The notes beneath the pieces were generated by a model. It was not told the DNA's origin, did no database searches, and saw only the letters and a list, made by a program, of their open reading frames with translations. Below, piece after piece: positions 2,085-46,403 of a stretch of DNA of 64,000 nucleotides. Positions within the stretch are counted from its first letter, which is position 1. Every line of letters begins with the position of its first letter. The translations under genes and the position numbers were made by a program. Where the stretch lies: the NCBI GenBank assembly GCA_017431685.1, contig JAFRKO010000043.1, positions 1 to 64,000 on the forward strand, in the 5' to 3' direction. Source of the stretch: Mogibacterium sp. GTDB lineage: Bacteria; Bacillota; Clostridia; Peptostreptococcales; Anaerovoracaceae.

Positions 2085-2098
2085 ACCAGTTCCCTTTT

Positions 2099-3331: not shown

Positions 3332-3344
3332 ACCCCGGTCCTCC

Positions 3345-4289: not shown

Positions 4290-4293
4290 TCCT

Positions 4294-5268: not shown

Positions 5269-5270
5269 TA

Positions 5271-5744
5271 TCAGAATGTAAAGTCTCCGCTCTTGCCGCC
5301 CGTTTTTTCGGCAAGATGTATATTCTCTATGACCATGCGCTTATCTATGGCCTTGCACATATCGTAAATGGTGAGAAGCGCAGCGCTGACGCCGGTAAGC
5401 GCCTCCATCTCAACGCCTGTCTTTCCGTCAGTTACAGCTGTACAGACAGCTTTGATTGAGCATGCCTCTTCATCGACCTCAAAAGTCACTTTCGCATTTG
5501 TCAGGCTCAGAGGATGGCACATCGGAATCAGATCTGATGTGTGCTTTACAGCCATAATGCCTGCCGTCTGTGCAACCGTGAAAACGTCGCCCTTCTTTAC
5601 CTTTTTGCCGAGAACCGCGTCCATCACATCGCGGGAAACTTTTATGCTCCCCTCAGCAGTCGCGCTCCTTCTGGTGATCTCCTTATCTGACACATCGACC
5701 ATGAAAGCGTTGCCCTTTTCATCAAAATGTGTGAAATCGCTCAT
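5271..5744 (-). CDS. moaC: Cyclic pyranopterin monophosphate synthase MoaC
   Basis: Converts the MoaA product to cyclic pyranopterin monophosphate. About 157 aa with the conserved blocks VAQTAGIMAVKHTSDLIPMC, HPL, the GKTGVEMEALTGVS active-site segment, MCKA and GGKSG near the C-terminus. In-frame starts exist at 5804, 5750 and 5744. The ribosome site AAAGGGG is correctly spaced for 5744 and too close for 5750; the 5750 ATG overlaps the stop of the upstream oxidoreductase (ATGA), so coupling from there remains possible. Directly followed by moaA. Confidence 0.95.
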   Translation of the reverse strand: MSDFTHFDEKGNAFMVDVSDKEITRRSATAEGSIKVSRDVMDAVLGKKVKKGDVFTVAQTAGIMAVKHTSDLIPMCHPLSLTNAKVTFEVDEEACSIKAVCTAVTDGKTGVEMEALTGVSAALLTIYDMCKAIDKRMVIENIHLAEKTGGKSGDFTF

Positions 5745-5746
5745 AT

Positions 5747-15656: not shown

Positions 15657-15866
15657 CTAACCTCCTGCAGTCATGAAACTCAGGTAAAAGCGGCGGTACA
15701 GTTCATCCGCGTTTTCTCCGGAGATTATGATACGGGTCTGGGGCACAGTCATCGACCCAAGGGTCCTGTCAGCCAGCTGTATTACTGTGACATCACCCGG
15801 ACTCTTACTGAAAAAAGCTCTTATGCGCTCCGCATCAACCGCCCAGACCTCATCGTATACCATCAT
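15657..15866 (-). CDS. Small hypothetical protein (69 aa), last gene of the surface-system operon
   Basis: Not recognised. 69 aa, soluble and mixed alpha/beta in composition, with no cysteine and no membrane segment. It begins MMVYDEVW; AAGAGG lies just before two adjacent ATGs. It follows the lipoprotein gene by 18 bases and ends just before the terminator, which supports it as a real last cistron. The segment SGENADELYRRFYLSFM suggests an amphipathic C-terminal helix. Function cannot be guessed from sequence alone. Confidence 0.5.
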   Translation of the reverse strand: MMVYDEVWAVDAERIRAFFSKSPGDVTVIQLADRTLGSMTVPQTRIIISGENADELYRRFYLSFMTAGG

Positions 15867-15884
15867 AAACCTCTTGTAAGCGGC

Positions 15885-16403
15885 TCACTTAACAAACTCG
15901 ATCGATTTGACCATCCTTACCCAATATGCCGAATCGGATTCCGGAATTATGATCCTGCACGGAATGCTTTCCTCATCCAGAGGTTCTCCGTCGATACCGA
16001 TAGCAAGGTATATCTTATGTTCCGTTATGTAGTCGTTCAGCAGCTTAACATCATACTCATCGGAACCGTTTATTATGATTTTTGAAAAATCTGCTTTTGA
16101 TGTTCCGTAGTTTCCAAGAACTGTATCTAGTTCCGGACCTGTCGCTCTCACTTTGCCTATCTTGTCGCTCGTGCTCTCGGTCTTCAGAGTTTTGCAGTCC
16201 ATGGCCTTAAGGTCAGCCGGAGTCAAAACAACAGGTTCATCACCCAGACCGGTCAGTTCTATCTGCGCATCCGAATATTCGCTTATATCTATGTCATCCA
16301 CTCCGCATGACGAAAGCACCAGTGTCATCATCAGACAGGTCAGTGCCATCATCATACAGGAAAAGATCACATACTGTCTTTTCCCATGTCGTTTTCCGAT
16401 CAT
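15885..16403 (-). CDS. Lipoprotein with a single sulfite-oxidase-fold (Oxidored_molyb-like) domain
   Basis: 172 aa. The signal segment is followed by a lipobox LVLSSC with the acylated Cys at residue 33, so the protein is anchored outside the membrane. The rest matches the fold of the molybdopterin-binding domain of sulfite oxidase in its landmarks: LTPADLKAM, a ligand-loop stretch, GIDGEPL and a closing PCRIIIPESDSAYWVRMVKS that mirrors the RLVVPG...VKW block of that family. The catalytic cysteine of true enzymes has no equivalent, so cofactor binding, if any, would be non-catalytic. It overlaps the ExbD-like gene by one base. Confidence 0.7.
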   Translation of the reverse strand: MIGKRHGKRQYVIFSCMMMALTCLMMTLVLSSCGVDDIDISEYSDAQIELTGLGDEPVVLTPADLKAMDCKTLKTESTSDKIGKVRATGPELDTVLGNYGTSKADFSKIIINGSDEYDVKLLNDYITEHKIYLAIGIDGEPLDEESIPCRIIIPESDSAYWVRMVKSIEFVK

Positions 16404-16714
16404 CAGTTGTCCTCTATAACGTAGTACTTTCCTGTCTCAGGATCTCTGTAGACCTTGCCCATCTCTTCAAGCTCTATATCAGGATCGATCGTCTGCTCGG
16501 CCTGCTGCCCTATGTTCTCCACCTCATATTTTGTGCCTTGCTGGCTTATCTCTCCCCGTTCACTTATCTCTACATTCCAGCTGATGATAAGAGCCAGAAG
16601 AATGCCGCAGGCGAATACAAGCATGGCGTCAGCCATGTTGCCGACACCTTCCATAGGGCTGAAGTCCTCTTCTATATACTGCCTCCTGAGATGTTTATTC
16701 TGTCTGAGTCTCAC
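16403..16714 (-). CDS. ExbD-like small membrane protein (DUF2149-type)
   Basis: 103 aa: about 28 cytoplasmic residues, one membrane helix (about residues 29-48) and a charged extracytoplasmic tail. The helix begins with NMADAMLVFACG; the Asp at residue 29 followed by xML matches the proton-carrying Asp of ExbD/TolR (DVML). I believe it belongs to the family named DUF2149, often found beside ExbB-like proteins, but this needs a profile search. The start is a GTG with GAGAGG upstream. Just upstream lies the ExbB-like gene, 17 bases away, so the two probably form a proton-driven motor. Confidence 0.72.
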   Translation of the reverse strand: MRLRQNKHLRRQYIEEDFSPMEGVGNMADAMLVFACGILLALIISWNVEISERGEISQQGTKYEVENIGQQAEQTIDPDIELEEMGKVYRDPETGKYYVIEDN

Positions 16715-16731
16715 TTCCGGGTACCTCTCTG

Positions 16732-17406
16732 CTATTTCTTCTGCGCTTCCGATTCCTTCAGCCTGGCGTAAGCTCTCATTCTTGCCTGTGACTGCTCTTC
16801 GAGTATAGTCTCCATCAATGTCTCCAGAGCAGTCATGTACTGATCATACCAGCCTTTGCGTATACCGGATACGATATAAGATATGGCACCGGATATGAGT
16901 CCGGCCACGGTTGTATCAAAGGCGATCAGAAGTGAATCAGACAAGGTTTTGGTGTCTCCCTGTCCAAGTGCTATCAGTCCCGGTCCAAGAGGTATCAGAG
17001 TACCCATAAGGCCGAACATCGGAGCAATACGGGCTATTATGTCAGTCACTTTCGTTATCTTTCTGTACCTCGCCTCTTCTTCAGCAATCAGCTGGCGGGC
17101 CAGCGCTTCCCTGGTGTCATCAGGATATGAAACTTTGCCTATAAGATATTTGAGGGCCTTTTTCTGTCTTGGCAGAATGCCCGCACCGTCAATTATGTTA
17201 TACATTTTGGATGAGCTGCTGCCCTGTATATCTTCGATCAGCAAAGGTATGCTGGTCTTTAGCTTCCTGTGATCAGTGAAATATTCAGCTATTATGGATC
17301 CGAGCATAAATACCGCAATGCCTATGAGGATCAGCAAAATTATTATTGTAGGAATCTGCAAAGCGCTGCTTATCACTCTGAGTATATCCTTGACTGCGCC
17401 TGACAT
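16732..17406 (-). CDS. MotA/TolQ/ExbB-type proton channel protein
   Basis: About 225 aa with three membrane segments: residues ~18-40 (PTIIILLILIGIAVFML), ~130-150 (IAPMFGLMGTLIPLGPGLI) and ~165-185 (FDTTVAGLISGAISYIVSG), with a large cytoplasmic loop between the first two. The block MFGLMGTLIPL...FDTTVAGL is the ExbB/TolQ signature. In diderm bacteria ExbB with ExbD powers TonB; here no TonB receptor is visible and the neighbours are surface lipoproteins and an ABC importer. Start ATG at 17406 after AGAGGGTG; a GTG at 17415 is possible. Confidence 0.9.
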   Translation of the reverse strand: MSGAVKDILRVISSALQIPTIIILLILIGIAVFMLGSIIAEYFTDHRKLKTSIPLLIEDIQGSSSSKMYNIIDGAGILPRQKKALKYLIGKVSYPDDTREALARQLIAEEEARYRKITKVTDIIARIAPMFGLMGTLIPLGPGLIALGQGDTKTLSDSLLIAFDTTVAGLISGAISYIVSGIRKGWYDQYMTALETLMETILEEQSQARMRAYARLKESEAQKK

Positions 17407-17453
17407 GACTATCACCCTCTTTTTGTTTATTGCATTAAACTTTTATACTTTAA

Positions 17454-18866
17454 CTAATGTTTTGGTCTGAAGTCCTTCCGGTATCTTATGACCCTGCCTA
17501 TCGCTCCTGCCCCGCATAAGAGACCGGTGCCTGCTGCTGTTCCGGCAGCCGCTTCCCGACTGTACGTTTCAGCTTCATCCAAAGCCTCTGCATCCTCTGC
17601 CATCCTGGCTCTCAACTCGTCCTGAGGACTGGCCTGCTCTACTACAATATCGCCCAGGATTATCTCTCTTGCGTTTATTGTCACCTGACCGGCCGGCTCA
17701 GTTTTCTCCTCAGCGGCCTCTTCATCGCTGCTGTTTTTATCTTCACTCATATCGTCGGTTCTCTTTTCAGTATCACTTTCTGACTGATCATCTTCATCAG
17801 TTTCGATGATGACCGGTTCTTCTTCGTTTTCAACAATGACCGTTTCTTCATCGTCTTCGACAGTTTCAGAAGACGCTTCATCATCCTCGCCGATTCCGTT
17901 GATGACTATCTCCGCGGTGGTACCGTCAGGTGCTGTTGCCGTGATGGTGACCGCTCCACTCCCGTGTATAGTGACCTCTCCATCCGGACTTACTGTAGCA
18001 ATCGATTCATCACTGCTCGTCCATGTGAGATCCTCTGCTGAGAAGGCGCCGTCAAAAGCTTCATCAACACTGAAAGTGGCCGAGATTCTCTTCATGCTTC
18101 CGACTTTGATATCAGGATCATCGAGGTCGAGGCTCAGGCCTTTTATCGGCGACCCTGTAAGCGTTATGTCAATACCATATATACTATGACATGATTCCAT
18201 GGATGAGATATCTCCACCGCCGTCTGACGGGTCTGTCATCCTGCCCTCCTGAAGATCTGACTGTCCCATGCAGAATCTGTATGTGCGTGACGTACTCATC
18301 TCAAGATCCTCTGCGTGCACGCCGGGCTGTTTTGACTCACCGAATTCAAGCGCTAGTATAGCGGGAACTGGCTGCTTACCATCTATGGCTCCTTCAGTCG
18401 GTGTCAGCGCATTTCCGTCTTCATTCCTTTCATAGCACGAGGCCAGGTTCGGATAATAGTATTTTTCGGCTCTAAGATGCTTGTCTACCGTAAAATTCCT
18501 GGTATATCCATCAGTAGTGCGGAAAGTTATGTTTCCAATAGATCCGGTATCTATTCCTGCAGCTTCTATGATGGTGAGCACTTCAGGCCCGTACGCTGCC
18601 ATGGACATTACTGTGCCGACTCTGGTTATGTTGGTATAGTACCATGTCGAAGCTCCCATGGCTTCGAGTTCGCTTCGGCTGAACCTCGCTTTTTCACGTA
18701 TCTTATCGCCTATCTCACCGTAATACTGCACACGAACCACGAGTTCATCACCAGCTGTTTCCGCGTCAGATCTCAACGGCATGAACCATATGAACTGTGA
18801 CAGCATCAGAAAAAATACTGATATCAAAGCGAGTATTCTTGTTCCCCAGTCTGCCTGTTTCTCCAT
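17454..18866 (-). CDS. Membrane-anchored surface protein: sulfite-oxidase-fold domain, BIG2 domain, acidic linker
   Basis: 470 aa. N-terminal signal/membrane segment (residues ~10-32), then a sulfite-oxidase-fold-like domain (about 45-250) with VLTIIEAAGIDT and AILALEFGE landmarks. A BIG2 immunoglobulin-like domain follows (about 265-350; LTWTSSDESIATVSPDG is diagnostic), then a highly acidic linker of about 70 Glu/Asp/Ser-rich residues and a C-terminal glycine-rich hydrophobic segment (TAAGTGLLCGAGAIGRVI) with basic tail RYRKDFRPKH. Two membrane anchors around an extracellular body make it a possible mechanical partner of the ExbB/ExbD-like pair encoded downstream, but that role is inference. 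It starts 12 bases after the binding-protein gene. Confidence 0.65.
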   Translation of the reverse strand: MEKQADWGTRILALISVFFLMLSQFIWFMPLRSDAETAGDELVVRVQYYGEIGDKIREKARFSRSELEAMGASTWYYTNITRVGTVMSMAAYGPEVLTIIEAAGIDTGSIGNITFRTTDGYTRNFTVDKHLRAEKYYYPNLASCYERNEDGNALTPTEGAIDGKQPVPAILALEFGESKQPGVHAEDLEMSTSRTYRFCMGQSDLQEGRMTDPSDGGGDISSMESCHSIYGIDITLTGSPIKGLSLDLDDPDIKVGSMKRISATFSVDEAFDGAFSAEDLTWTSSDESIATVSPDGEVTIHGSGAVTITATAPDGTTAEIVINGIGEDDEASSETVEDDEETVIVENEEEPVIIETDEDDQSESDTEKRTDDMSEDKNSSDEEAAEEKTEPAGQVTINAREIILGDIVVEQASPQDELRARMAEDAEALDEAETYSREAAAGTAAGTGLLCGAGAIGRVIRYRKDFRPKH

Positions 18867-18878
18867 TGAGTTTATGCC

Positions 18879-19967
18879 TCAGTAGCCGAGTTTTTCCCTG
18901 CTGAGCTCCATTCCGTAGGCCATCATATAAAAATCTGTAACATCGTGCTCAAGCTGTTCATCTGACAGAAGTTCCGGATACATTGTGCTCATCATGAATT
19001 CGATGCCAAGCGAGCTCACTATTCCGGGGAACTCCCAGGAATCGTACGCTGAAGGTATCATGAACACGTGCTTTCCCTTAACAGCTTTCATTTCTGACCA
19101 TGCCGGGTCAGAGTATATGTCATCGGCTGTATATGAAGCACCGCTTCCTGTTATGAATATATAGTCGGGATCCCAGCTGAATATCTGCTCTGTACCTGCG
19201 GTCGGCCAGAGTTCTGCTGATTTGAGATCGGCAGCGCAGTTCACAGCCCCCGCAGACTCGAGCATCTTTCCCTGCAGCATGGATCCGTCGGCAACCTTGC
19301 CTATGGAAGACCCCATGACTATCGCAGTCTTTTTCTTATTATCACTGACAGTGCCCGCAAGCTCAAGCGTCATTTCGACTGACGTCTCATAATATTCAGA
19401 CAGCTCCAGAGCACGCTCCTCTGCACCGCAGACTTTGCCCAGTATATCCAGGGCTGTCAGCATTTCTTCAGGGCTCTCAACATCTATGCCCACAGAAGGT
19501 ATCCCTATATTCTGTACCGCATCAAGGGTCTCCGTATCTGACGCCTTGTGTATGAAAAGGTCAGGCTTAAGGGATGCGAGTGCCTCTATGTCAGCTACGC
19601 CCTTTCCGACATCGACGGTTTCCTTAAGCGAAGGCTGCACATCTTCGAGAAATGGTTCGGTCTTTCCCATACCGCTTATCCTGTCTCCCACGCCAAGGTT
19701 CAGCAGGAACCTGACTACTACCCTGTAACACAGAGCGATAGACTGCGGATCCCTGTTTACTGTGACCTCCCTGCCTGCCTGATCTATTATAGTCAGTTCA
19801 TTCTCAGTCTCGGAGATCACCGTACCGGGCGCTTTATCCGGCGAGGCAGCGCCCCCGCTGCTGACTCCGCATCCTGAAAGCATCAAAACGGCAGCCATGA
19901 TCAGTACGATAACAGATAAGGCTCTTTTCTTTATGTGGCTTTTCAATTTGAGTGTATCAGAACTCAT
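18879..19967 (-). CDS. FecB/BtuF-type ABC transporter substrate-binding lipoprotein
   Basis: 362 aa. Signal peptide and lipobox (VLMLSGCG) are followed by a type III binding-protein fold: IDQAGREVTVNRDPQSIAL, a domain-joining helix and LKPDLFI. This class binds siderophores, haem, cobalamin or, in the MolA group, molybdate/tungstate. The C-terminal YDSWEFPGIVSSLGIEFM resembles uncharacterised metal-complex binders more than known siderophore proteins. The ATG at 19967 gives a normal signal peptide; the in-frame ATG at 20042 would overlap the ATPase gene. Ligand undetermined. Confidence 0.9.
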   Translation of the reverse strand: MSSDTLKLKSHIKKRALSVIVLIMAAVLMLSGCGVSSGGAASPDKAPGTVISETENELTIIDQAGREVTVNRDPQSIALCYRVVVRFLLNLGVGDRISGMGKTEPFLEDVQPSLKETVDVGKGVADIEALASLKPDLFIHKASDTETLDAVQNIGIPSVGIDVESPEEMLTALDILGKVCGAEERALELSEYYETSVEMTLELAGTVSDNKKKTAIVMGSSIGKVADGSMLQGKMLESAGAVNCAADLKSAELWPTAGTEQIFSWDPDYIFITGSGASYTADDIYSDPAWSEMKAVKGKHVFMIPSAYDSWEFPGIVSSLGIEFMMSTMYPELLSDEQLEHDVTDFYMMAYGMELSREKLGY

Positions 19968-19998
19968 TTCTTCAAATTCCTTTTGAGCCGGGTCTTTT

Positions 19999-20790
19999 TT
20001 ATAGCCCCGGCACGAGACAGGAAGTCCTGCCGAGTTCTTCAATATATCTTATGCGGATATCCATTCCGTATACTTCGCTCAGTGTTTCCTCAGTAAGGAT
20101 AAAGCTGCTGTCTCCCTGCACGATCTTTCCGATGCGGCTGACGATAGCTGCCTTATCGCCCAAAAGGAGCGCGTGGTCCGGATTGTGCGTAGTGATCACT
20201 ATAGAATAGCCTTCAGATGCCATCTGTTTGATACGTCTTAGAACTCTGTGCTGATTGCCATAGTCCAGATGTGCGGTCGGCTCGTCGAACAGTACCACTT
20301 CAGGATCCTGAACTATTGCTCTGGCGATAAGAAGCTGCTGCCTCTCACCTCCGCTTATATCCAGATATGATTTATACGCCAGATGCCCCAGTCCCATTCC
20401 CTCCAGAATATCCAGGCACCTATGCTCATCGTCAGTTCCGGGTCTTCCGAACATGCCGGTCTCCGGCGCTCTGCCCATAAGCACAAAATCTATGACCCTG
20501 TAGTCGAAAGCAGGTGTATGAAGCTGAGGCACATATCCTGCAAGCGAGGCTATCTCCTTCACATTCATAGTGCGAATATCTCTGCCGCACAGCATGATCT
20601 CTCCTGCCTCAGGCGTAAGAAGCCCTGCCATACAGTTGAGCAGAGTCGTTTTGCCCGCGCCATTAGGACCCAGAATGCAAAGCACTTCACCTCTTCTGAG
20701 GATAAGCGAAGCATCGTCCAGTACTTTGCGTTCATATCCTGGATAGCTGAATGACAGATTTCTGACCTCATAGACTGCTTCACTTGTCAT
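19999..20790 (-). CDS. FecE/BtuD-type ABC transporter ATP-binding protein
   Basis: 263 aa with Walker A GPNGAGKTT, signature LDISGGERQQLLIARA, Walker B EVVLFDEPTAHLD and the switch His in VITTHNPDHA. The sequence class (YVPQLHTPAFDYRVIDFVLM) is that of iron-siderophore/cobalamin importers. Overlaps the permease gene by 4 bases and precedes the binding-protein gene, so the three encode one importer. Confidence 0.95.
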   Translation of the reverse strand: MTSEAVYEVRNLSFSYPGYERKVLDDASLILRRGEVLCILGPNGAGKTTLLNCMAGLLTPEAGEIMLCGRDIRTMNVKEIASLAGYVPQLHTPAFDYRVIDFVLMGRAPETGMFGRPGTDDEHRCLDILEGMGLGHLAYKSYLDISGGERQQLLIARAIVQDPEVVLFDEPTAHLDYGNQHRVLRRIKQMASEGYSIVITTHNPDHALLLGDKAAIVSRIGKIVQGDSSFILTEETLSEVYGMDIRIRYIEELGRTSCLVPGL

Positions 20791-21854
20791 CTGACATTCC
20801 TCCTCTGGCGGTACAGGAGCCAGGCAAAGAACGGAGCTCCTATCAGACCTGTAAGTATGCTCACCGGCATCTCAGCCGGTCCGATTATGCGGGTAACGGT
20901 ATCGACCAGCAGCATGAATATTCCGCCCATGCAGCAGCATGCCGGCAGCAATATCCTGTTGTCAGATCCTGCTGTCATACGACCGAAGTGCGGAACTACA
21001 AGACCTACCCAGCCAATTGTGCCGGATATACAGACAGCACCTGCGGTTAGTATTGTAGAGCATATGATGCAGATACCTCTCAGCTTTCTGACATCTGCTC
21101 CAAGGCTTTTAGCCTCCTGCTCTCCCAGAGACAGCACATTGATCCACCACGACATCGCAAGCAGCACCAAAGTGGCAATAATACTGAGCGGAAGCACGCT
21201 CAGTACAGCAGCGTTATTGACATATGCAAAACTGCCGAGCTGCCAGTACGTTATTGCCGCGAGCTGGGTTTCAGGATCCGCTATGTATTTTATGAAGCCG
21301 AGTATTGACGACATGGCTCCGCCGACTATTATTCCTGAGAGCACCAGCATTATGTTGGAGTCGCTTCGCATAAGCCCCGGTATGGCTACAGTGAGAAATA
21401 CTGCAGCAAGGCCTCCCAGAAATGCTGATACCTGCACAAGCCCTGAAGGCAATGACATGAGTATCGCTATTGCGGCTCCCACGCATGCGCCTGATGAAAC
21501 TCCGAGAAAGTCAGGTGATACAAGCGGGTTTTTGAATATGCCCTGGTAAACTGCTCCTGAAAGCGCGAGCGATGCCCCTACCATCACTGAAGCCATCGTG
21601 CGCGGAAACCTCACTCCGAGAAGCATGTTCTCATCCATCCCGTTCCAGTTTTGTTCCAAATGAAAGATTTGTCCGACAAGGATTTTCAAGCAGTCACCAG
21701 CGGAAATGGAATACTTCCCCACGCACAGGCATATAAGGATAAGAAACAGCAGCACCAGAAAGAGGGCCGCGTTTATGAGGCCCCCTCTCCTGTTTATGCT
21801 GTTCAATGTCTTTTCTCTGCCCAATGAAGTATTCCTTATACAGTTGTCACGCAC
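20787..21854 (-). CDS. FecCD-type ABC transporter permease
   Basis: About 345-355 aa, ten predicted membrane helices, FecCD/BtuC family: GVRFPRTMASVMVGASLALS is the diagnostic block after the second helix, and IGWVGLVVPHFGRM...NRILLPACC near the C-terminus is the coupling region. The start is uncertain: GTG at 21854, or TTG at 21824, which has AAGGAA upstream. A predicted promoter lies in the 91-base gap upstream, so the importer may be expressed independently of the large surface-protein gene. Confidence 0.93.
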   Translation of the reverse strand: MRDNCIRNTSLGREKTLNSINRRGGLINAALFLVLLFLILICLCVGKYSISAGDCLKILVGQIFHLEQNWNGMDENMLLGVRFPRTMASVMVGASLALSGAVYQGIFKNPLVSPDFLGVSSGACVGAAIAILMSLPSGLVQVSAFLGGLAAVFLTVAIPGLMRSDSNIMLVLSGIIVGGAMSSILGFIKYIADPETQLAAITYWQLGSFAYVNNAAVLSVLPLSIIATLVLLAMSWWINVLSLGEQEAKSLGADVRKLRGICIICSTILTAGAVCISGTIGWVGLVVPHFGRMTAGSDNRILLPACCCMGGIFMLLVDTVTRIIGPAEMPVSILTGLIGAPFFAWLLYRQRRNVR

Positions 21855-21889
21855 CGGTACCCATAAGTTCCTGGGCCTTGTTTACCTGT

Positions 21890-21919
21890 ATTATAATTCC
21901 AGGACAATTATCCCTGCAA
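21890..21919 (-). promoter_or_regulatory. Predicted internal promoter of the ABC importer genes
   Basis: On the minus strand TTGCAG (21914-21919) and a perfect TATAAT (21890-21895) are 18 bases apart, about 35 bases upstream of the FecCD permease start. Confidence 0.5.
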
Positions 21920-21945
21920 CTGCAATAAGGGCTTTTATTGCTCTG

Positions 21946-24900
21946 TCACCGTGTCTTTACAGCTCTGAACCTGCTCCACTTTGAGTAGTTCTTCTTTTTG
22001 CTGACAGTCCTGTAGGTACGGACACGTACATAGTATTTTTTGCCGGCTTTGAGCTTGGTGATCTTCTTGCTTGTCTTCTTATAACCCTTGACATTGAAAG
22101 TCTTCTTGTTCTTTGTGAACTTCCTGTCTGTCGCTATCTGGATCTGGTAGCCCGTGATACGATACTTCAGCATCTTTGCAGACTGCTTCTTCCATTTGAC
22201 CGTAAATGCCTTGCGGCCCTTCGTGAGCTTCTTTATGTAAGTCCCCTTAGGCCTGATCCTGTATTTCACCTTTACTTTGCCCTTGTATTTACCTATGCCG
22301 GTCACAGTAACGCTATACCTTCCGACGTTCTTCGGTGAAGTCTTGGAATACCTGACAGTATAGTCCACACCCTTTTTAAGCTTCTTGCCTCCGATACTTA
22401 CGACCTTAGGTCTGTGCACTTTCCTGTTGTAGGTATACACGGTATGTGAAAGGACGACCTTGGACTTTGAGATATCCTTACGTCCGTCGTTTCTGAACGT
22501 GAACTCGTGTGTCGCGAGACCGCCCGATGAGCCTGCAAAGAGGGTGCTGCCGTGGAAGTCCAGACTGTAGATGTTGTCATACCCTTCATCCCACGATCCT
22601 TTTGCCGAGGAGTACTGCGCAGTCAGGGTCAGCTTTCCGCTGCTGATATCCGCATCTTCACAATAGAACACGCCGTCCTTGGATGTTCCGAACCACAGTC
22701 CGCCGTCAGGATCGACAGTGACCATTCTCAGTTCAGAGTCCTGCGTGAAAGTCTTCTCGCCGAACAGATCGAATCCTGTAAATTCCTTAGCTTTTGCTCC
22801 AGGTGAGCTCACATACCAGACTTTTCCTCCGGTATTAGCCATGCCGGCGTATGATCCTGAAGCTACGATCCACGCACCGCCGTCTTTGTCCACAGCAATG
22901 TCCCTGATCCATACATCCCCGAGTCTGTAAGCGCCGGTATTCGCATCTTTTGGTGAAGTGTACTTATATACATTTGCGACCTTGCCGTCCTTGAAATAAG
23001 CAAATCCTCCTTTGAAAGGCTTTGAACCGTCATCGGCATCTGAGCTCGGATAGAAACCGCACCATATGCCTCCCTTGCTGTCGATTTCGATGTTGTCGAC
23101 AGACTTCGCAGGGAAGCCCTTTGACTTGTTCCATGTCTTCCATGTGCCGGCCTTAGGATCAAACTTTGTAAGACCTCCGAAAGAGCCTATCCAGACAATG
23201 CCTGAAGAGTCGATCTTGACCTCCTGTACATAGTCGTCCGGAACTGTGTCAGGCGCGCGGTACAGCTTTATCTTTTTGCCCTTCATGTATGCCAGGCCTC
23301 TGTTATCCGATGGGTTTGTATAGCTTGCGTTCTGGCTCATGTAGACGCCGCCTTTATCATCAGGACAGATCGCCGAAACGAATGTCGTTTCAAGAGCCGG
23401 CTTTGATGCCTTGTTGTAAACAACGAATTTATTTGAGCCCTTGGCTCTGTACGCAGCACCGCCGCCGTAAGTGCCTACCCAGAGGTTTCCGTCATTATCC
23501 ATGGCAGTCGATCTTATGCCCGCCATAGGCAGCTGTCCATCCTTTGAAGTTCCCGGGAATACATCGAATTTTACAGCACTGGTCTTGACTTTGACCTGTA
23601 TCTTTACAACGTTGCCCGCGCTCTTGCCGTTGGCATTATGTATTACAAGCCTCATAGGACCGTTGCCGTTATCAATGGACGAATCGTAGCCCGGCCCGGC
23701 CTCATCGTTCTTGCCGAACTGAGCCAGAGGAACTCCGTCGCAGCCATATGCAAGCATTATAGGGTAATAGCTCCCGCCATCCTTGACGCCATTTTTGATC
23801 GCATCCAGTCCCTGCTCCATAACGTTATAGGAGAAGCCGTCCATGGCTATGACATTGATTGCAACCGGATCATTCAGTCCATCCACGCCGTCCATGACCG
23901 TGGTTAAGAGATTCCAGAAATTCAGTCCCTCCCAGACATTGTCTACTTTAAGATGAAGTCCCTGCTGCGTGATCAGGTCTTTCATTGACTCCAGTTCAAG
24001 GACTGTCAGTTCTCTGGAGAATATCACCTTGCTGTCAGGATCTACAGCCTCGAAAGTCACCTTCCTGTCGAGGTAAGTCTCGAATGTGGCCGAGCTGCTG
24101 TGGTTCCAGTTGATCATCTCAGATGCTGTCACCTCAACGGATACAACGTCTGAAAGGCAGCTGCCCGCGTTTGCATCGTTCGCATCCTTCTGCCCTATTA
24201 CGAATCTTACAGGACCGCCGCTGTTCGAATAGCTGTCGACATAACCTGCGCTGTCCTTTCCTGTAACGAGCGGCTTGCCGTCCTTTTTGTCTGAATTGGA
24301 AACTGCCGCTGATCCGTAAGCCAGCATAGGCGGAAGCTCTGTAACGGTGCTGTCCGCTGTGTTGACATAATCCTTCCTGATGATGGCATCCATACTGAAT
24401 TCCATACTGCTGCCGTCTCTGCAGGTGATGATCACCTTGTCTGCATTAGGCTTCAGCCCTACATTGGATGATCTCAGGAAATCATAAAGTCTTATGCCTC
24501 TGAATCTTATAGAAGATGTATCTCCGCTGTTCTTGCGAAGACTGTAGTCGTATGTGCCTGCGAATGTCTGCTTTGACTCCAGTTCTGAGAGCTTGAAAAT
24601 CTTAGGACCGGTGAGATTGGTGCCTTCTCCGGAAATCGTTATCTCACTGTCTTCATAAGAGTCATAAGGAGCATCGATATGAGCATAATTGTCAGGTTCA
24701 AGATCTACCGTTATGGAAACCACATCAGACAAAGTCTGCGCTGATCTGCTTCCGTCCTTTGACCCCGGTATGATCACCTGAAGCGGCCCGCCCTGATTGT
24801 CAATGAACACCTCATTCTCAAATTGTGTGCCTGCCGCCAGCCTGACCGTACTGACATATCCGTCTGAAGCAGTCTTTCCCTTCGCGAGAGGCATGCCGTT

Positions 24901-26724
24901 CTTTCCGTAAGCCAGTACAGGCAGCAGTCCGGATACTCCGGTATCGGCATTGTAGCCGTCATCCATCGAAAGAATATCCGCAAGTGACGCTTCCAGAGTT
25001 TTTCCATCTGAACCTGTGAATCTGATCGTTCCGGAGATGCCCGACATCTCGACGACATTCTGCAGGAAATACGCGATGCTCATTCCTTCATAAACATCAG
25101 AGCCCGAGCCCAGATCGTATTTTGCCTTGACCCTTGCATCGCTGAGCTGTGTAGCTGTCAGTTTTCCGCCGTATATGATCTCCTCAATATCCCCTACGGT
25201 GTAGCTCTGAGTCTTGCTTTTAATGGAACCGCCTGCAGTCGTTTTGATGTCGACCTTCAGATTACTGCCTGCCAGATCCTGATACACCTTATCAGAGTGA
25301 TATTTGTGAGATGCATAGTGATATGTGTTTTCTCCTACTACGATACCGCTCAGTTTCTGTGCCTGGCTGGAACCGTTGTTGTGGTTATAGGCTGTCTTGC
25401 CCGAAATTACCCTGACAGGCCCGCCGTCATTCGAAAGACCGCTGAGGTAGCCATCGAGCTTAGAGCTGATGACATAAGGATATCCATTGACTCCATATGC
25501 AAGCAGCACAGGGTATCCGACTGCCAGCTTATCTCCCGTATTCACATCATCGCCCTGACGTATATTTTCGTTAGGTACGTATTTACCGTCATTGGTATCG
25601 CTCGAGTTCTTCTCATAAAAACCAAAAGCATTCTCATCAGCTATCTGCCTGAGAGTGAATTTATCCGTACCGGAGTAATTATCTGAAGTCAGATAGTTGA
25701 CGACGGTCGATGAGTCACTCGAAAGTCCCGGGTCGAGTCCCGAACGGAGCAGCAGGCTCCAGAGCCTTACTCCTTCGTACTCATTTACATACCAGTACGT
25801 TGTATTAGTCAGGCTGTAGTTGTCTCTGTATCCGTATCCGTTGTCGACTACCCCTCCTGAACTATCGTATTCAACCATATTCTCGATCTCTTCGATCGTA
25901 TAATTGACCTCGCGTCCCAGCTTGTCGCCGGTAACGCTGATAATGGCCTGTGTGTTTTCGACAGCATTGTACGGACTACCCTCAACAGTATGCTTGAAGC
26001 CCGGCCGCGCTCCCTCCTCGACATACACGTATGCCATGTTGCTGAATCTAGTGTAGCCTGTGTTGCTTCCGTATTTTGAGGTGTCGTAAACCAGCTTAAG
26101 GCAGCCATCATCATTGCCGAGACCCGGTATTATTCCGGTAGCCCCGTCAAATACGAACGGAGCAGGCGATGAGCCATCAGCGCCGGCAGTTCCGTATGCT
26201 ATGAGTATCGGGTTGCCGTCGTTATGTGCTTTAGTGACATCTTCAAGATCGAAGGTCGATATGGTCTGTCTGTTCCTGTTCTTGATCGTCACTTTTTTTG
26301 CTGAGTCGGTAAGTACTATGCCGCTGCTGCCCGAAGACATCTCATTCAGCAGATAGTAAAGATCCATGCCTTCATACATCATGGATGTTTCTTTGCCGCC
26401 TCTACTGTCTTTATATACAGCTCTGGAGTAACCTGTATCACGAGACTCCATATCTCTTACAGAGAGAGGAACGCTCGTCTTTACTCCCGGGCCCTCTATT
26501 GTCAGTGTCGCTCCGGTAATGGCATCAATGTTGTAAGGCCCGTCCTGACCGGTAATGCCTCCGTTGTTGACATGCTTATAAGGGCTGTCACTGTAATCGA
26601 TGGCATCGTCTGATGCCGCAAAAGAATATAAGTCTCCGGCGGGAGCCATGGCAAGCACCATCGCCAGAGACAGGAAGCCGGCCAGTAACCCGGCCAGCTT
26701 TTTTCTGATTCCTGTATTATTCAT
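21946..26724 (-). CDS. Giant secreted protein: five sulfite-oxidase-fold modules, sensor-type propeller, Ig/Fn3 C-terminus
   Basis: 1592 aa. Signal peptide (residues 1-36, hydrophobic core AGLLAGFLSLAMVLAM). Five diverged modules follow at about 45-240, 245-470, 490-685, 688-870 and 871-1050. Each has the order YEGxxLYxLL, a variable ligand loop, (L/I)LAYGxxGxPL and GGPxRxVI, as in the sulfite-oxidase molybdopterin fold, without a conserved catalytic Cys. A two-component-regulator-type beta-propeller follows (about 1060-1410: DNDGNLWVGTYGGG, SSGIVWIGSFGG, SKGGIWCG), then an Ig-like and a basic Fn3-like domain (about 1495-1592). Near the N-terminus NIDAITGATLT (residues 66-75) matches the covalent-flavin motif. 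No LPXTG anchor is seen. Ribosome site GGAGG. The propeller suggests binding or sensing. Confidence 0.72.
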   Translation of the reverse strand: MNNTGIRKKLAGLLAGFLSLAMVLAMAPAGDLYSFAASDDAIDYSDSPYKHVNNGGITGQDGPYNIDAITGATLTIEGPGVKTSVPLSVRDMESRDTGYSRAVYKDSRGGKETSMMYEGMDLYYLLNEMSSGSSGIVLTDSAKKVTIKNRNRQTISTFDLEDVTKAHNDGNPILIAYGTAGADGSSPAPFVFDGATGIIPGLGNDDGCLKLVYDTSKYGSNTGYTRFSNMAYVYVEEGARPGFKHTVEGSPYNAVENTQAIISVTGDKLGREVNYTIEEIENMVEYDSSGGVVDNGYGYRDNYSLTNTTYWYVNEYEGVRLWSLLLRSGLDPGLSSDSSTVVNYLTSDNYSGTDKFTLRQIADENAFGFYEKNSSDTNDGKYVPNENIRQGDDVNTGDKLAVGYPVLLAYGVNGYPYVISSKLDGYLSGLSNDGGPVRVISGKTAYNHNNGSSQAQKLSGIVVGENTYHYASHKYHSDKVYQDLAGSNLKVDIKTTAGGSIKSKTQSYTVGDIEEIIYGGKLTATQLSDARVKAKYDLGSGSDVYEGMSIAYFLQNVVEMSGISGTIRFTGSDGKTLEASLADILSMDDGYNADTGVSGLLPVLAYGKNGMPLAKGKTASDGYVSTVRLAAGTQFENEVFIDNQGGPLQVIIPGSKDGSRSAQTLSDVVSITVDLEPDNYAHIDAPYDSYEDSEITISGEGTNLTGPKIFKLSELESKQTFAGTYDYSLRKNSGDTSSIRFRGIRLYDFLRSSNVGLKPNADKVIITCRDGSSMEFSMDAIIRKDYVNTADSTVTELPPMLAYGSAAVSNSDKKDGKPLVTGKDSAGYVDSYSNSGGPVRFVIGQKDANDANAGSCLSDVVSVEVTASEMINWNHSSSATFETYLDRKVTFEAVDPDSKVIFSRELTVLELESMKDLITQQGLHLKVDNVWEGLNFWNLLTTVMDGVDGLNDPVAINVIAMDGFSYNVMEQGLDAIKNGVKDGGSYYPIMLAYGCDGVPLAQFGKNDEAGPGYDSSIDNGNGPMRLVIHNANGKSAGNVVKIQVKVKTSAVKFDVFPGTSKDGQLPMAGIRSTAMDNDGNLWVGTYGGGAAYRAKGSNKFVVYNKASKPALETTFVSAICPDDKGGVYMSQNASYTNPSDNRGLAYMKGKKIKLYRAPDTVPDDYVQEVKIDSSGIVWIGSFGGLTKFDPKAGTWKTWNKSKGFPAKSVDNIEIDSKGGIWCGFYPSSDADDGSKPFKGGFAYFKDGKVANVYKYTSPKDANTGAYRLGDVWIRDIAVDKDGGAWIVASGSYAGMANTGGKVWYVSSPGAKAKEFTGFDLFGEKTFTQDSELRMVTVDPDGGLWFGTSKDGVFYCEDADISSGKLTLTAQYSSAKGSWDEGYDNIYSLDFHGSTLFAGSSGGLATHEFTFRNDGRKDISKSKVVLSHTVYTYNRKVHRPKVVSIGGKKLKKGVDYTVRYSKTSPKNVGRYSVTVTGIGKYKGKVKVKYRIRPKGTYIKKLTKGRKAFTVKWKKQSAKMLKYRITGYQIQIATDRKFTKNKKTFNVKGYKKTSKKITKLKAGKKYYVRVRTYRTVSKKKNYSKWSRFRAVKTR

Positions 26725-26811
26725 GCTGTCATCCTCCAGTCCGTATTTACAGATGACTCATGTACTTTTCTGAAAAGTACCGGAATGATCCTGTCTGGTT
26801 TTTTCAGTCTG

Positions 26812-28206
26812 TTACTTCTTTGTTCTGATCTTCTTGACCTTTGAGTATTTTCCGAATACCTTCTTGCCCTTGCTGTTCAGTTTGTAAGCTCTGATCTTGT
26901 AGTAGTAAGTCTTGTTCTTTTTGAGCTTTTTGTTGGTGAACTTAACAGTACTGCCCTTCTTGAAGGTCTTGACTGCCTTGAAACCGGAAGACTTCTTGGT
27001 CGATCTGTAAACAACATAACCCTTTGCGCCGGACACCTTCTTCCACTTCAGTGTGACTGATGTCTTCTTTGAAGTCACGCTCTTTATGGTGACCTTGCCA
27101 GGCCTCTTTACTGAAGGAACAATAGGAGCAGGTACATCCTTGGCAGTGACGGTGATTTTAATAGTCTCGCCTTTGACCCATTTGCCTTTGTTCATCTCTC
27201 CTTCAGCGAACTGTCCGATCGCTGTCTTCTGAACTTTTTCACCATTCTCACTCCAGATGAACATAGCCTTGTTGCCCTGGATATCAGCATTGATGATCAT
27301 GTCAGCTGTGTAAGTCGTATTGTATCCGTCATCAGCTTCGATCAGCACCGAGTCAAGTTCTTTGCCATCCTTGATTCCTGCAAGATTGATAAGATCTTCG
27401 ATAGTAACACCCGTTACTGTAAAATCCTCTTCTGTTTCTTTGCTGTTAAGTGTGTGGAATACTACATCCTCTTTAATGAAAGGCTTTACATTCTCATCAT
27501 TTTTAAGGATCTTGATCGATTCATAGCTGAGCTGAGCTGACAGATCATCGCCGACTACACTGAGAACCGGTCCTTCAGGTTTTGTGTCAGGCTTTTTATC
27601 CCCATCTGACGAAGGATCAGTACCGGATGATCCGGCATCTTTAGCAGTCACTGTAAGCGTAATGGTGTTACCTGCTACCCACAGTTTTTTATTCTGCTCA
27701 TCTGCTGCAAACTGTCCGACCGCCATTTCCTGAACTTTCTCGCCCCCGTCATCCCAGACAAACATGGCTTTGTTGCCCTGCAGGTCTTCCTTGAGGATCT
27801 GATCGGCCGTATATGTCTTGCTGTATCCGTCTTCAGCAGTTGCAGTCACGGTATCAAGTTCTTTGCCATCCTTGAAACCAGCGAGCTTGAGAAGATCTTC
27901 CACAGTAACACCTGTTACAGTAGCGGACCCCTCTGTGTTGCTGCTGTTAAGAGTACGGAATACAACTCCTTCCTTGATAAGCGGCTTAATGTTCTCATCG
28001 TTTTTAAGAGTCTTGATCGAATCGTAGCTGAGCGATGTCACAAGATCATCACCTGATACGCTGAATACCGCAGTCGATGTTTCATCAGCAGCGAATACAT
28101 AGTCTGCCACAGGCATCATCGTGAATACCATTGCCATGGCAAGGAACATCACGAGAAGTCTCGCAGTTACCAGTCTGATCAGGTTTTCTCCCTTTCGGTT
28201 ACTCAT
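26812..28206 (-). CDS. Secreted protein with two tandem sulfite-oxidase-fold-like repeats and Fn3-like C-terminus
   Basis: 464 aa. Signal peptide (residues 1-40, core LLVMFLAMAMVFTMMPVA), then two repeats at about 42-200 and 212-365. They are close copies: SYDSIKTLKNDENIKPLIKE in the first and SYESIKILKNDENVKPFIKE in the second agree at 16 of 20 positions. Each contains GVT(V/I)EDL(L/I)xLAG and DGY(S/N)xTYTAD, recalling the sulfite-oxidase molybdopterin fold, again without the catalytic Cys. A basic Fn3-like domain (about 370-464) nearly matches the one in the 403-aa neighbour. Strong AAAGGAGG ribosome site. Probably a surface ligand binder; ligand unknown. Confidence 0.68.
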   Translation of the reverse strand: MSNRKGENLIRLVTARLLVMFLAMAMVFTMMPVADYVFAADETSTAVFSVSGDDLVTSLSYDSIKTLKNDENIKPLIKEGVVFRTLNSSNTEGSATVTGVTVEDLLKLAGFKDGKELDTVTATAEDGYSKTYTADQILKEDLQGNKAMFVWDDGGEKVQEMAVGQFAADEQNKKLWVAGNTITLTVTAKDAGSSGTDPSSDGDKKPDTKPEGPVLSVVGDDLSAQLSYESIKILKNDENVKPFIKEDVVFHTLNSKETEEDFTVTGVTIEDLINLAGIKDGKELDSVLIEADDGYNTTYTADMIINADIQGNKAMFIWSENGEKVQKTAIGQFAEGEMNKGKWVKGETIKITVTAKDVPAPIVPSVKRPGKVTIKSVTSKKTSVTLKWKKVSGAKGYVVYRSTKKSSGFKAVKTFKKGSTVKFTNKKLKKNKTYYYKIRAYKLNSKGKKVFGKYSKVKKIRTKK

Positions 28207-28289
28207 ACCTTTCCTCCTTTAGCTTCCTGTACTATTCACAATAACCTTTTTATATGATCCAGATCTGTACGATCTGATTATCAACACTG

Positions 28290-29501
28290 CTATTTGGCTC
28301 TGGTGCTCTTTACGGCTGAGTATCTGCCGTAAACTTTTCGGCCTTCCATAGTTCTGTAAGCGCGGACTTTATAGTAATATCTCTTGCCCTTCTTAAGCTT
28401 TTTGTTTACATATTTTAGCGTGCCGCCCTTTTTTATGGTTTTGACTGCCTTGAAGCCCGAGGACTTTTTAGTCGACCTGTATATAACATATCCGGTAGCG
28501 CCTGAGACCCTGCTCCATCTGACAGTAACTTTGCGTTTGCCGGCGGTCAGCTTCAGAGTCGGTTTTTCAGTTGATGGCCCGACATAATATCTGAAGTCAG
28601 CCACTTCGCTGTCCAGCTTTCCGTATGCCTTCACCTTCACCTTAAGGTGATAGACTCCATACTTGTTCGGAAGTACAGGTCTTGTCTCAGTTCCCTGATT
28701 CATGCCGCTGTTATATATTGTGCTCCCATAGTCAGGTTCTGAGCCGTCCAGGGTGTAATAGATGTATTCCATACTGCGCCCTGTCCCGTTAAGTACTATT
28801 TCTTCCCCTTTTTTGCATATCGATCTGTCAGCAGGAACTGATTCAGGAACTGCACACCGTGAAGCTGGTGTGGTCTTTATTTCTATTGTCGCAAGATATT
28901 TGGTAAATGCCGGCTTGTTCTCATCGTTAGGTGCCGCCTGACCTACACAGAGAACATTACCGTCCTTGCCGCCGGTCAGGTATATTACCGCTTCGACCTC
29001 TGAGGCATCTGCGTAGGATTCATCGGGCACAGCACCTGTTTTAGGGTCAGCAAGTCCTCCGTTCGGGAAACAGTACCTTTTTTCATTGAAAAGCTGATTT
29101 CCTGTGAAGGATGCTCCGTAACTGCCATCTGAGAATGTGACTGTGCCCGTATCAGTCACGGCATCCCTGACGCCGGCTTTCTTAAGTACCGCGTCTACTG
29201 TAGGACCTGTGACAGAGGCATACGTCTTTTTATCAAATGTAGGGAAAGTATTCCACGCGGAATACGTACATATCTTATTGCCCTCCTCTGCAGCTATCTG
29301 CTCGAGTTCCTCCAAAGTAAACTCTTTTACCACCTCACCGTCTTTCTTAATAGTGAGATCTGTACCTTCAGCATAAACAATCTGTATCGATCCGATCCAG
29401 AAAAAAGCAGCTAAAAAAACAGCAACGACCATAGCCATATGAATAGTGGCCTTCATCGTTGCTTTAATCCGGATTCTGTCAGTATCGGAGTAAGTTTTCA
29501 T
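28290..29501 (-). CDS. Secreted sulfite-oxidase-fold-like protein with chitobiase-C-like and Fn3-like domains
   Basis: 403 aa. Signal/anchor segment (about residues 20-43), then one sulfite-oxidase-fold-like module (about 45-215; VKEFTLEELEQIAA, TGPTVDAVLKKAGV, EAVIYLTGGKDGN). Next is a small beta domain with YYTLDGSEPDYGSTIYNSG, typical of chitobiase C-terminal/Fn3-like modules, then a basic Fn3-like domain (about 320-403). It overlaps the THEP1 NTPase by 4 bases (ATGA), so the two are translated together. It carries the same Fn3 module as the 464-aa protein. Confidence 0.66.
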   Translation of the reverse strand: MKTYSDTDRIRIKATMKATIHMAMVVAVFLAAFFWIGSIQIVYAEGTDLTIKKDGEVVKEFTLEELEQIAAEEGNKICTYSAWNTFPTFDKKTYASVTGPTVDAVLKKAGVRDAVTDTGTVTFSDGSYGASFTGNQLFNEKRYCFPNGGLADPKTGAVPDESYADASEVEAVIYLTGGKDGNVLCVGQAAPNDENKPAFTKYLATIEIKTTPASRCAVPESVPADRSICKKGEEIVLNGTGRSMEYIYYTLDGSEPDYGSTIYNSGMNQGTETRPVLPNKYGVYHLKVKVKAYGKLDSEVADFRYYVGPSTEKPTLKLTAGKRKVTVRWSRVSGATGYVIYRSTKKSSGFKAVKTIKKGGTLKYVNKKLKKGKRYYYKVRAYRTMEGRKVYGRYSAVKSTRAK

Positions 29502-30028
29502 ACTAGCCCCCCTCTTTCCTCAATAAGAGAACTGATAGTCTCATATAACTCATCACGGTTATCTGCATCTATGTAAAATACATCTGCGTTAGGGTGAACA
29601 AGCAGTTTATTGAGAAACTCAATGTCGTGCCCCGATTTTGCTGTCGCAATGATAGGAATATCTCCGTCAAAGAGCTCCAGGACCCGTGCACAGAATTTCT
29701 CAGCATTCTTTTCCATGAACCCCAGCTCATCCATTACTATGATGCCTCCGGGCTCAGCTTCAAGGCATTTAACTCCATAACCGTCAAAAGCCTCAGGATA
29801 AGCGACCGGCTGTATTCCATTACCATCCCCTATGTGATTTTCTTCGGATTCAGTCCTTACCGAGGCTCCGGCAGGATGTATAAAAAAAGAACGGTAACCT
29901 TTTTTCATGCTTCTCCCGGGAGCTGTGCGAAATCCATAGACCCTTGCGCCGGATCCTTCCAGGAGGCGGTCAACAAGTGTGGTCTTACCGATTTTTCTCT
30001 TTCCGGCAATTATGATATGTCTGCCCAT
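29498..30028 (-). CDS. THEP1-type nucleoside-triphosphatase (NTPase_1 family)
   Basis: 176 aa P-loop protein. Walker A is AGKRKIGKTTL at the N-terminus; Walker B is IIVMDELGFMEKNAEKF, the hallmark of the THEP1 family (DExGxMExxxxxF). Members hydrolyse NTPs or phosphorylate small substrates; their role is not settled, though they recur near metal uptake and pterin genes. Here it heads the surface-system operon and is translationally coupled to the first surface protein. A cytoplasmic maturation or salvage role is inferred. MobB is an alternative of similar fold, but the Walker B pattern favours THEP1. No strong ribosome site. Confidence 0.85.
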   Translation of the reverse strand: MGRHIIIAGKRKIGKTTLVDRLLEGSGARVYGFRTAPGRSMKKGYRSFFIHPAGASVRTESEENHIGDGNGIQPVAYPEAFDGYGVKCLEAEPGGIIVMDELGFMEKNAEKFCARVLELFDGDIPIIATAKSGHDIEFLNKLLVHPNADVFYIDADNRDELYETISSLIEERGGLV

Positions 30029-45856: not shown

Positions 45857-45857
45857 A

Positions 45858-46403
45858 CTAATCCTCCTTGGTCAGGGATCCCTTCTGTGCTCTGGAAGCA
45901 GCGTATGCCTTGCAGAGAATGCCTCCGACTACGATCGACGCTATCATTCCGCTGATGCCGACGAACAGTCCCTGGATAAATACGAGGTTTGCAGGCTCTG
46001 CATAGATGAGGATGTCTCCGATAGGTGCAATCACACCCCAGCAGAGCACGCAGCTGACTATCGAAACGATCGTGAAGCGGATGAATTCCTTCTTTCCAAA
46101 GAGTCCGTCTTCAAGATTAATGCCTTTGCATCCGAATCCTACAAAAAGTCCATAGAGTCCTGTAACGACTACCCATGTCCACCATACGCCCCAGCCTGCG
46201 GTCAGGTCTACAAGCAGGTTTCCGAGGAAGCCTCCGACGAATCCTACAGCAGGTCCGAACAGCACCGCAAAGAAAGCGACAACTGCTGCATAGATGCTCA
46301 GAGTTGTGTCAGGGAATGGTGTAGGAATAGCTACAAAACGGAGCAGCACGAATACGAGGGCTGCCAGAATAGCTGATGCGACTACATTTCTGACTGTTTT
46401 CAT
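45858..46403 (-). CDS. ECF transporter S component (UPF0397-like)
   Basis: 181 aa, five or six membrane helices: VVASAILAALVFVLLRF, FPDTTLSIYAAVVAFFAVLF and GGFLGNLLVDLTAGWGVWWT are the UPF0397-like pattern. It confers substrate specificity. Linked in other Bacillota with SAM or methionine metabolism, in line with the SAM hydroxide adenosyltransferase here. Substrate not proven. First gene of the eight-gene unit; ribosome site AAAGGAG. Confidence 0.87.
   Translation of the reverse strand: MKTVRNVVASAILAALVFVLLRFVAIPTPFPDTTLSIYAAVVAFFAVLFGPAVGFVGGFLGNLLVDLTAGWGVWWTWVVVTGLYGLFVGFGCKGINLEDGLFGKKEFIRFTIVSIVSCVLCWGVIAPIGDILIYAEPANLVFIQGLFVGISGMIASIVVGGILCKAYAASRAQKGSLTKED

Follow-up and report, generated by a model that had tools for sequence, protein, structure and literature searches.

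A gene series for SUOX-fold surface proteins, an ExbB-like motor and an importer in Mogibacterium sp.: a candidate acquisition system for tungsten/molybdenum species

Positions 15657-30028 of a 64,000-nucleotide stretch of DNA from the gut bacterium Mogibacterium sp. (contig JAFRKO010000043.1; the whole stretch is hereafter called the window) are occupied by a single operon-like series of minus-strand genes. The original prediction, made from the sequence alone, described eleven genes of a proton-driven capture and import system; the series in fact counts twelve. It encodes surface proteins with sulfite oxidase (SUOX)-fold modules, an ExbB-like motor subunit with a small partner, a FecBCD importer and a THEP1-type NTPase, in the following order:

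29498..30028, minus strand: THEP1-type NTPase of 176 aa, whose gene opens the series (PF03266, E 1e-20)
28290..29501, minus strand: secreted 403-aa protein with one SUOX-fold module (module model E 1.7e-11), a CHB_HEX/Fn3-associated region (Pfam) and a C-terminal fn3-like region
26812..28206, minus strand: secreted 464-aa protein with two SUOX-fold modules and a C-terminal fn3-like region (module model E 1.8e-23; PF00174 1.2e-6)
21946..26724, minus strand: giant secreted 1592-aa protein with an N-terminal flavinylation-like motif, five SUOX-fold modules, Reg_prop propeller repeats and fn3 (module model E 4e-25; Reg_prop 1.1e-13)
20787..21854, minus strand: FecC-type importer permease, 355 aa (PF01032, E 1.1e-84)
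19999..20790, minus strand: FecD-type importer ATPase, 263 aa (PF00005, E 1.1e-29)
18879..20042, minus strand: FecB-type substrate-binding lipoprotein, whose longest frame has 387 aa (PF01497, E 8.7e-26)
17454..18866, minus strand: membrane-anchored 470-aa protein with a signal anchor, one SUOX-type module, BIG2, a disordered acidic linker and a C-terminal transmembrane helix (module model E 3.5e-6; Big_2 3.7e-9; structure model)
16732..17415, minus strand: ExbB/MotA-like motor subunit, 227 aa (PF01618, E 3.9e-12)
16403..16714, minus strand: DUF2149 protein, 103 aa, putative axle, with one transmembrane segment and an invariant Asp29 (PF09919, E 2.7e-9)
15885..16403, minus strand: single-module lipoprotein of 172 aa with the SUOX fold
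15657..15866, minus strand: 69-aa protein

The Big_2 match agrees with the BIG2 domain that had been predicted in the membrane-anchored protein. The fn3 match of the 403-aa protein was below the Pfam cut-off, as was the FMN_bind match of the 1592-aa giant (0.047), and the true start of FecB is probably internal to its longest frame. The 69-aa protein has matches in three loci only, including the window, and its NCBIfam match (CBO2463_dom, E 0.03) is far under the cut-off.

The modules were detected with a hidden Markov model (HMM) that was built from other genomes and then applied to the window proteins. Ten modules of one family are spread over five products. The claim that these products share one fold thus stands at the level of a common domain family, while the fold itself was modelled for one of them, maybe two. 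The model of the 172-aa lipoprotein has the sulfite-oxidase fold, and its best structural matches are PruR pterin-binding proteins (PDB 7kom, 7kp2, 7kos and 7rkb). When the whole model of the membrane-anchored protein was submitted to Foldseek, the 50 matches listed were immunoglobulin (Ig)-like folds (among them Lig and intimin Ig domains) and other unrelated folds; a PDB search with the 464-aa protein alone returned weak fn3 and Ig matches.

Catalytic SUOX proteins need a metal-bound Cys and, when extracellular, Tat export of the loaded protein. The ligand Cys was looked for in single-module proteins: the molybdenum-ligand region (residues 71-86 of the window lipoprotein) contains no Cys in 31 of the 33 that were aligned, namely the window lipoprotein and 30 of its 32 relatives. 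A strict Tat motif was found in none of 207 SUOX-type open reading frames (ORFs) and a loose RR motif in 18, as judged by a motif rule on uncurated starts and not by a trained predictor; 54 of the 207 have a lipobox. Asp115 (33/33) and Tyr117 (32/33) are among the most conserved residues of the single-module proteins and are candidate pocket residues. Since PruR provides a precedent for a secreted, Cys-less and pterin-binding protein of this fold, we infer that the modules may bind their ligand in the apo form and would not be ordinary molybdenum enzymes. PruR resembles the lipoprotein as a standalone, secreted SUOX fold that does not carry the molybdenum-ligand Cys. According to a review, however, PruR works with DcpA in Proteobacteria and prefers tetrahydromonapterin; it has a single module, and the present set has 1-9 modules per protein together with a motor and importers.

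The giants carry a further feature. The flavinylation-like motif DAITGATLT starts at residue 67 of the 1592-aa protein, and D[AS]ITGATLT opens the first SUOX-type module of giants in the window and in loci L064, L075, L076 and L153. ApbE-labelled genes adjoin the giants in L064 and L059 and are also present in the L075 locus.

The ExbB-like protein was assigned correctly: it matches PF01618 at 46.5 bits against a cut-off of 22.9, retains the core of the family in an alignment of 21 sequences, and its profile matches MotA chains at 3e-4. Its gene is the sole MotA_ExbB match in the draft genome to which the window belongs. The DUF2149 protein, which had been described as ExbD-like, has one transmembrane segment, and its Asp29 is invariant in 28 of 28 sequences; the label can be kept for it by analogy. 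Homologues of the membrane-anchored protein align through the C-terminal hydrophobic helix, and the linker is of low confidence in the model; together, these features suggest that the anchor may work as a TonB-like transmitter. Omp85, used as a single marker of an outer membrane, was found in none of 19 genomes with the set or near it, while 7 of 14 control genomes were positive. The motor therefore seems to operate in cells without an outer membrane.

The families co-occur in many genomes; their failure to do so would have refuted the original prediction. Of 398 genomes from the phylum, 34 have DUF2149, and among these 34, CobN is present in 14 and Oxidored_molyb in 19. The phylum sample comprises 37 DUF2149 places, and long stretches were mapped for 30 of them, including the window; those left out of the mapping (G162, G300, G084, G075, G118 and the second places in G161 and G235) are all in genomes with CobN. 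To this sample were added the best 80 of at least 236 confirmed places in 84,980 species genomes, in a scan seeded with the ExbB of this set. Loci were deduplicated by ExbB, and genes were labelled with our own HMMs, some proteins being checked against Pfam or NCBIfam. SUOX-type proteins lie within 10.5 kb in 57 of the resulting 106 distinct ExbB/DUF2149 loci, a proportion that is not a natural frequency because of the choice of the sample and the ExbB-seeded scan. A further 27 loci contain CobN, 5 contain similar surface proteins only and 17 none of these. Since no locus among the 106 contains both SUOX-type proteins and CobN, we are dealing with one motor pair and two partners that were not found side by side in any of them.

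A frequent gene order is SUOX-type anchor, ExbB, DUF2149 and SUOX-type protein, and giants of 5-9 modules adjoin this order in several loci. The conserved core of the system is the SUOX-fold proteins, ExbB and DUF2149. THEP1 and FecBCD, both of which had been included in the system and are indeed present in the window, were ruled out as core members: THEP1 was found in 5 loci only, and the importer comes in two types, with ECF parts in place of FecBCD in other clades. A literature search, with thin coverage of subscription journals and none of bioRxiv preprints, retrieved nothing on this system among the papers listed.

Some observations on neighbouring genes should be mentioned separately. 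In hybrid loci (L044 7809-9215, L046 10919-12331 and L053 9386-10774), a 462-470 aa protein with a CobN fragment only (profile 718-971) is encoded upstream of ExbB, at the position of SUOX-type anchors or HmuT-like proteins elsewhere. A purple-acid-phosphatase-like metallophosphoesterase was labelled in 17 of the 57 SUOX-type loci (L033, L034, L055, L083 and others) with an HMM that may also catch fn3-like regions; in L034 and L055, the protein matches PF00149 and PF16656. One Moco/Tuco riboswitch (RF01055, see below) lies 13 nt ahead of a metallophosphoesterase gene. A possible role of the enzyme is to remove phosphate from a captured pterin or nucleotide.

In the window, the FecCD permease, the ATPase and the Peripla_BP_2 binding protein are all present and make up a FecBCD (type II) importer. 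An importer was found within 10.5 kb in 30 of the 57 SUOX-type loci vs 8 of the 49 other loci (Fisher p 1e-4); of the 57, 17 have FecB or FecC nearby and 13 have a component of an ECF transporter. Mogibacterium-type loci (L072-L079, L087 and L114) as a rule contain FecBCD parts. ECF parts were found in loci of the Syntrophomonas, Dethiobacter and Pelotomaculum types; the ECF parts of L036, L063 and L065 were named by Pfam ABC_cobalt or CbiQ. The nearest solved relatives of FecB are 4hn9 (1e-34), 4ovk (1.7e-24) and HI_1472 (3psa, 3.9e-16), the last of which we take to be the molybdate/tungstate protein MolA. Outside the operon, at 43323-46403, the window contains an apparent ECF-type transporter, named from its sequence (EcfT-like protein, double ATPase and 181-aa S component), which is adjoined by a SAM hydroxide adenosyltransferase gene (PF01887).

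In 46 related loci, which amount to 777,831 bases when the window is left out, an Rfam scan revealed 22 riboswitches of the molybdenum/tungsten cofactor (Moco/Tuco) family RF01055, spread over 17 loci; two more upstream of the L076 and L077 operons (stretches L152 and L153) bring the total to 24. Not all 46 loci are independent (L075 and L109 overlap on one contig, L059 and L060 adjoin, and L039 and L041 are near-identical), and L058-L065 were picked for SUOX-type genes, with no motor in the stretch. For 22 loci from 17 genomes with genome-wide counts, 17 riboswitches were seen vs 0.82 expected, a roughly twentyfold enrichment whose p value is only a guide because the genome counts were made under strict filters and the loci were chosen by SUOX-type genes. 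Twelve of the 24 RNAs precede the gene of a SUOX-type or similar surface protein by no more than 250 nt; the remaining ones stand ahead of THEP1 (one), ApbE (two) or a phosphoesterase (one) or lie elsewhere (eight). In L074, a Tuco-type riboswitch is found 29 nt ahead of the THEP1 homologue. Stem P3, as judged by eye, is missing in 22 of the 24 RNAs, and P3-lacking RNAs were proposed to be tungsten-cofactor sensors (Regulski et al. 2008, PMC2408646, in the passages available). The same passages single out two P3-lacking S. wolfei RNAs in front of "putative Moco-utilizing sulphite oxidase" genes, which were seen as possible exceptions. In genome G015, an RF01055-type RNA has a SUOX-type gene 953 nt downstream (L041), and the exceptions of 2008 may well be genes of the system described here. 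The passages on the regulon in PMC2408646 mention neither a motor nor surface capture proteins. The scan also returned one pan motif and two c-di-GMP-I type riboswitches in SUOX-type loci (L050 1252-1336 and L120 331-410); the latter are of interest because PruR acts through c-di-GMP.

A riboswitch-like variant below the Rfam cut-off, which we designate R1, was found by a regular expression at five distinct places:

L154, 9196-9279, minus strand: R1
L156, 5813-5899, minus strand: R1
L075, 13437-13519, plus strand: R1
L078, 868-951, minus strand: R1
L153, 10842-10925, plus strand: R1

R1 has neither the GGAAAC loop nor the inner P2 stem, and 11 of its 27 aligned pairs show two-sided changes (covariation). 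Rfam 15, applied with gathering cut-offs to three loci (L075, L078 and L109), did not detect it. A covariance model of R1 retrieved 39 of 296 genomes of the family and none among the 20 genomes of the window genus listed. In 24 of the 30 best R1 loci, the next gene or genes encode a ferredoxin subunit and/or an AOR, as named by similarity to those of the window; elsewhere, R1 precedes the gene of a xanthine oxidase-type molybdopterin aldehyde oxidoreductase (L203 and L206) or a TupA-like gene (L211), and it stands ahead of a SUOX-type operon in L207 and in L154 and L212, which are one place in one genome. R1 is thus a candidate new variant of the Moco/Tuco riboswitch, and its position in front of AOR genes, a TupA-like gene and a SUOX-type operon strengthens the tungsten reading.

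Genes for tungsten/molybdenum uptake are also found nearby: L063 encodes TupA- and TupB-like proteins and L054 a ModE-TupA-like fusion (all under NCBIfam cut-offs), and WtpA of L043 and ModA of L157 score above these cut-offs. A presumed TupA beside L079 was rejected, the gene being PstS/PstC (phosphate).

We propose, at roughly even confidence, that the locus is an acquisition system for tungsten/molybdenum species, most likely a metal-pterin cofactor (or pterin), in a cell seemingly devoid of an outer membrane. That the ligand belongs to the tungsten/molybdenum class appears quite likely; that it is taken in a pterin-bound form is an even call at best. The original suggestion of a metal or pterin complex is thus favoured by the riboswitches of related loci, the TupA-like, WtpA, ModA and AOR neighbours and PruR as the nearest fold, with the ligand itself being deduced from this context, as are transport, binding, hand-over, import direction and proton or other energy coupling. 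In the proposed mechanism, secreted and lipid-anchored proteins with 1-5 SUOX-fold modules would bind the ligand outside the cell, and it would be passed along the wall. The transmembrane-anchored SUOX-type protein with its disordered linker would take a TonB-like place; the ExbB-like channel and the DUF2149 axle would move this anchor with the proton gradient, so that the ligand would be released to FecB, and FecCD would import it to supply tungsten/molybdenum enzymes (AORs). A more far-reaching version, in which this would be the first importer of an intact tungsten/molybdenum pterin cofactor, with a wall-spanning relay of non-catalytic apo-SUOX-fold modules that would catch released cofactor (or pterin), a Ton-like proton motor that would drive its hand-over, FecBCD or ECF import and riboswitch feedback resembling that of cobalamin riboswitches on B12 import, we regard as less likely than not.

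Several results weigh against the proposed function. Neither the window nor the genome around it yielded an RF01055 RNA, even below the cut-off, and none was found in the L072 genome, that of the nearest relative; a canonical or sub-threshold riboswitch in the window leader was ruled out (none at E up to 10), and R1 was not found there either, so the tungsten link of the window rests on homology and on its AOR neighbours. Among the 46 related loci, 29 have no riboswitch in the stretch scanned, and no importer lies within range of 27 of the 57 SUOX-type loci, on contigs that in some cases end there. AOR genes occur in 19 of 20 phylum-sample genomes with the set vs 209 of 378 others, and their presence does not discriminate, because they are also found in 10 of 12 genomes with the CobN-type set. 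The window genome holds ModA and ModB and, with moa/moe-like genes at 174-5804 (named from sequence without a family search), seems to make its own pterin cofactor, so that importing the complete cofactor would only add to this supply. No ligand is listed for the nearest solved FecB relatives. Two of the 33 single-module proteins, those of L074 and L048, do have Cys in the ligand region, and CDGSCGN of L048 may be a ligand-like motif. Homology of DUF2149 to ExbD found no significant support: hhalign brought the transmembrane Asp residues into register, but the score was not significant (P 0.1) and two control alignments scored almost equally. Finally, the PruR pocket is likely unable to take Moco, according to a review.

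A rather unlikely alternative is that tungstate or molybdate would be captured as oxyanions (or in a small chelate) in place of a pterin, with the modules binding the anion and FecBCD acting like MolBCA. It would agree with the similarity of FecB to HI_1472, its third-best solved relative, with the TupA-like, WtpA and ModA genes that adjoin SUOX-type genes in some genomes, and with the lack of a PF12849 (TupA/PstS family) match in the window genome; the riboswitch class, too, precedes molybdate transporters in the passages of PMC2408646. Binding proteins of PF12849 and PF13531, families wider than Tup, Wtp and Mod, are however already present in 21 and 28, respectively, of 28 genomes with the set. 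FecBCD and ECF importers carry mostly large chelates and vitamins, and the fold is a pterin-binding one. We favour the pterin cofactor over the oxyanion on account of the fold, the kinds of importer and the link to a cofactor-sensing RNA. TupABC, WtpABC, ModABC and MolBCA handle the same metals and, to our knowledge, have no surface modules and no motor. An improbable alternative is a surface redox system in which the SUOX-fold proteins would act outside the cell as reductases or carry electrons, with flavin mononucleotide (FMN) attached by ApbE, the motor and importer being incidental. The flavinylation-like motif is kept in 5 giants and absent from 306,179 aa of unlabelled ORFs, L039 holds FMN_bind, Fer4_5 and ApbE, and two riboswitches are directly ahead of ApbE genes. 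Such a role fits poorly with the missing ligand Cys of most single-module proteins, with the lack of strict Tat signals and with the linkage of importer genes to the set; FMN on the giant could instead reduce the captured cofactor.

Capture of heme or another tetrapyrrole, which we consider still less probable, is suggested by the motor pair itself. ExbB with DUF2149 is already known from heme operons, which qualifies the claim of an undescribed system. The hmuYRSTUV operons of Bacteroidota (CobN/HmuS, HmuT, ExbB and DUF2149), such as those of P. gingivalis and P. intermedia, have the pair beside a ligand-handling protein, as described in parts of PMC10434189 and PMC12583661. These operons differ in their TonB-dependent receptor, outer membrane, heme ligand and CobN dechelatase in place of SUOX-type proteins. 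FecB and FecC of the window do score against heme and B12 models, under the cut-offs; conversely, CobN and SUOX-type sets share no locus, the window genome has no CobN, and the 777,831 non-window bases contain 22 Moco/Tuco and no cobalamin riboswitches at gathering cut-offs. Tandem wall-side modules also serve a FecBCD-type importer in Isd/NEAT, a heme system of monoderm bacteria, as they would here; fold and ligand differ, and Isd/NEAT has no motor. That the proteins merely serve adhesion or wall remodelling, with the fold as a scaffold and unrelated neighbours, is very improbable: fn3, BIG2 and propeller repeats, all present in window proteins, are common in surface adhesins, and the best fold matches of the anchor include Lig and intimin Ig domains, but cofactor riboswitches, importer linkage and tungsten/molybdenum neighbours argue otherwise.

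Returning to the proposed acquisition of tungsten/molybdenum species, the likeness to the Ton system lies in an ExbB family member, a small partner with a single transmembrane segment and an invariant Asp in it, and a membrane-anchored protein with a disordered linker; the differences are the lack of an Omp85 match in all 19 genomes, and so apparently of an outer membrane to serve, a partner without significant homology to ExbD and an anchor whose transmembrane helix is at the C-terminus. Ton-like motors would gain a use outside diderm cells, and DUF2149 and secreted Oxidored_molyb proteins would obtain a candidate function, with a possible explanation for the S. wolfei exceptions among Moco/Tuco riboswitches. 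Tungstate in the human gut is well below 100 nM and tungsten-enzyme genes are abundant there, according to parts of PMC11980592. The system may therefore be an answer, beyond TupABC, WtpABC and ModABC, to the question of how gut bacteria lacking an outer membrane compete for tungstate, and, if the cofactor itself is the ligand, cross-feeding of tungsten or molybdenum cofactor among gut microbes would become possible.

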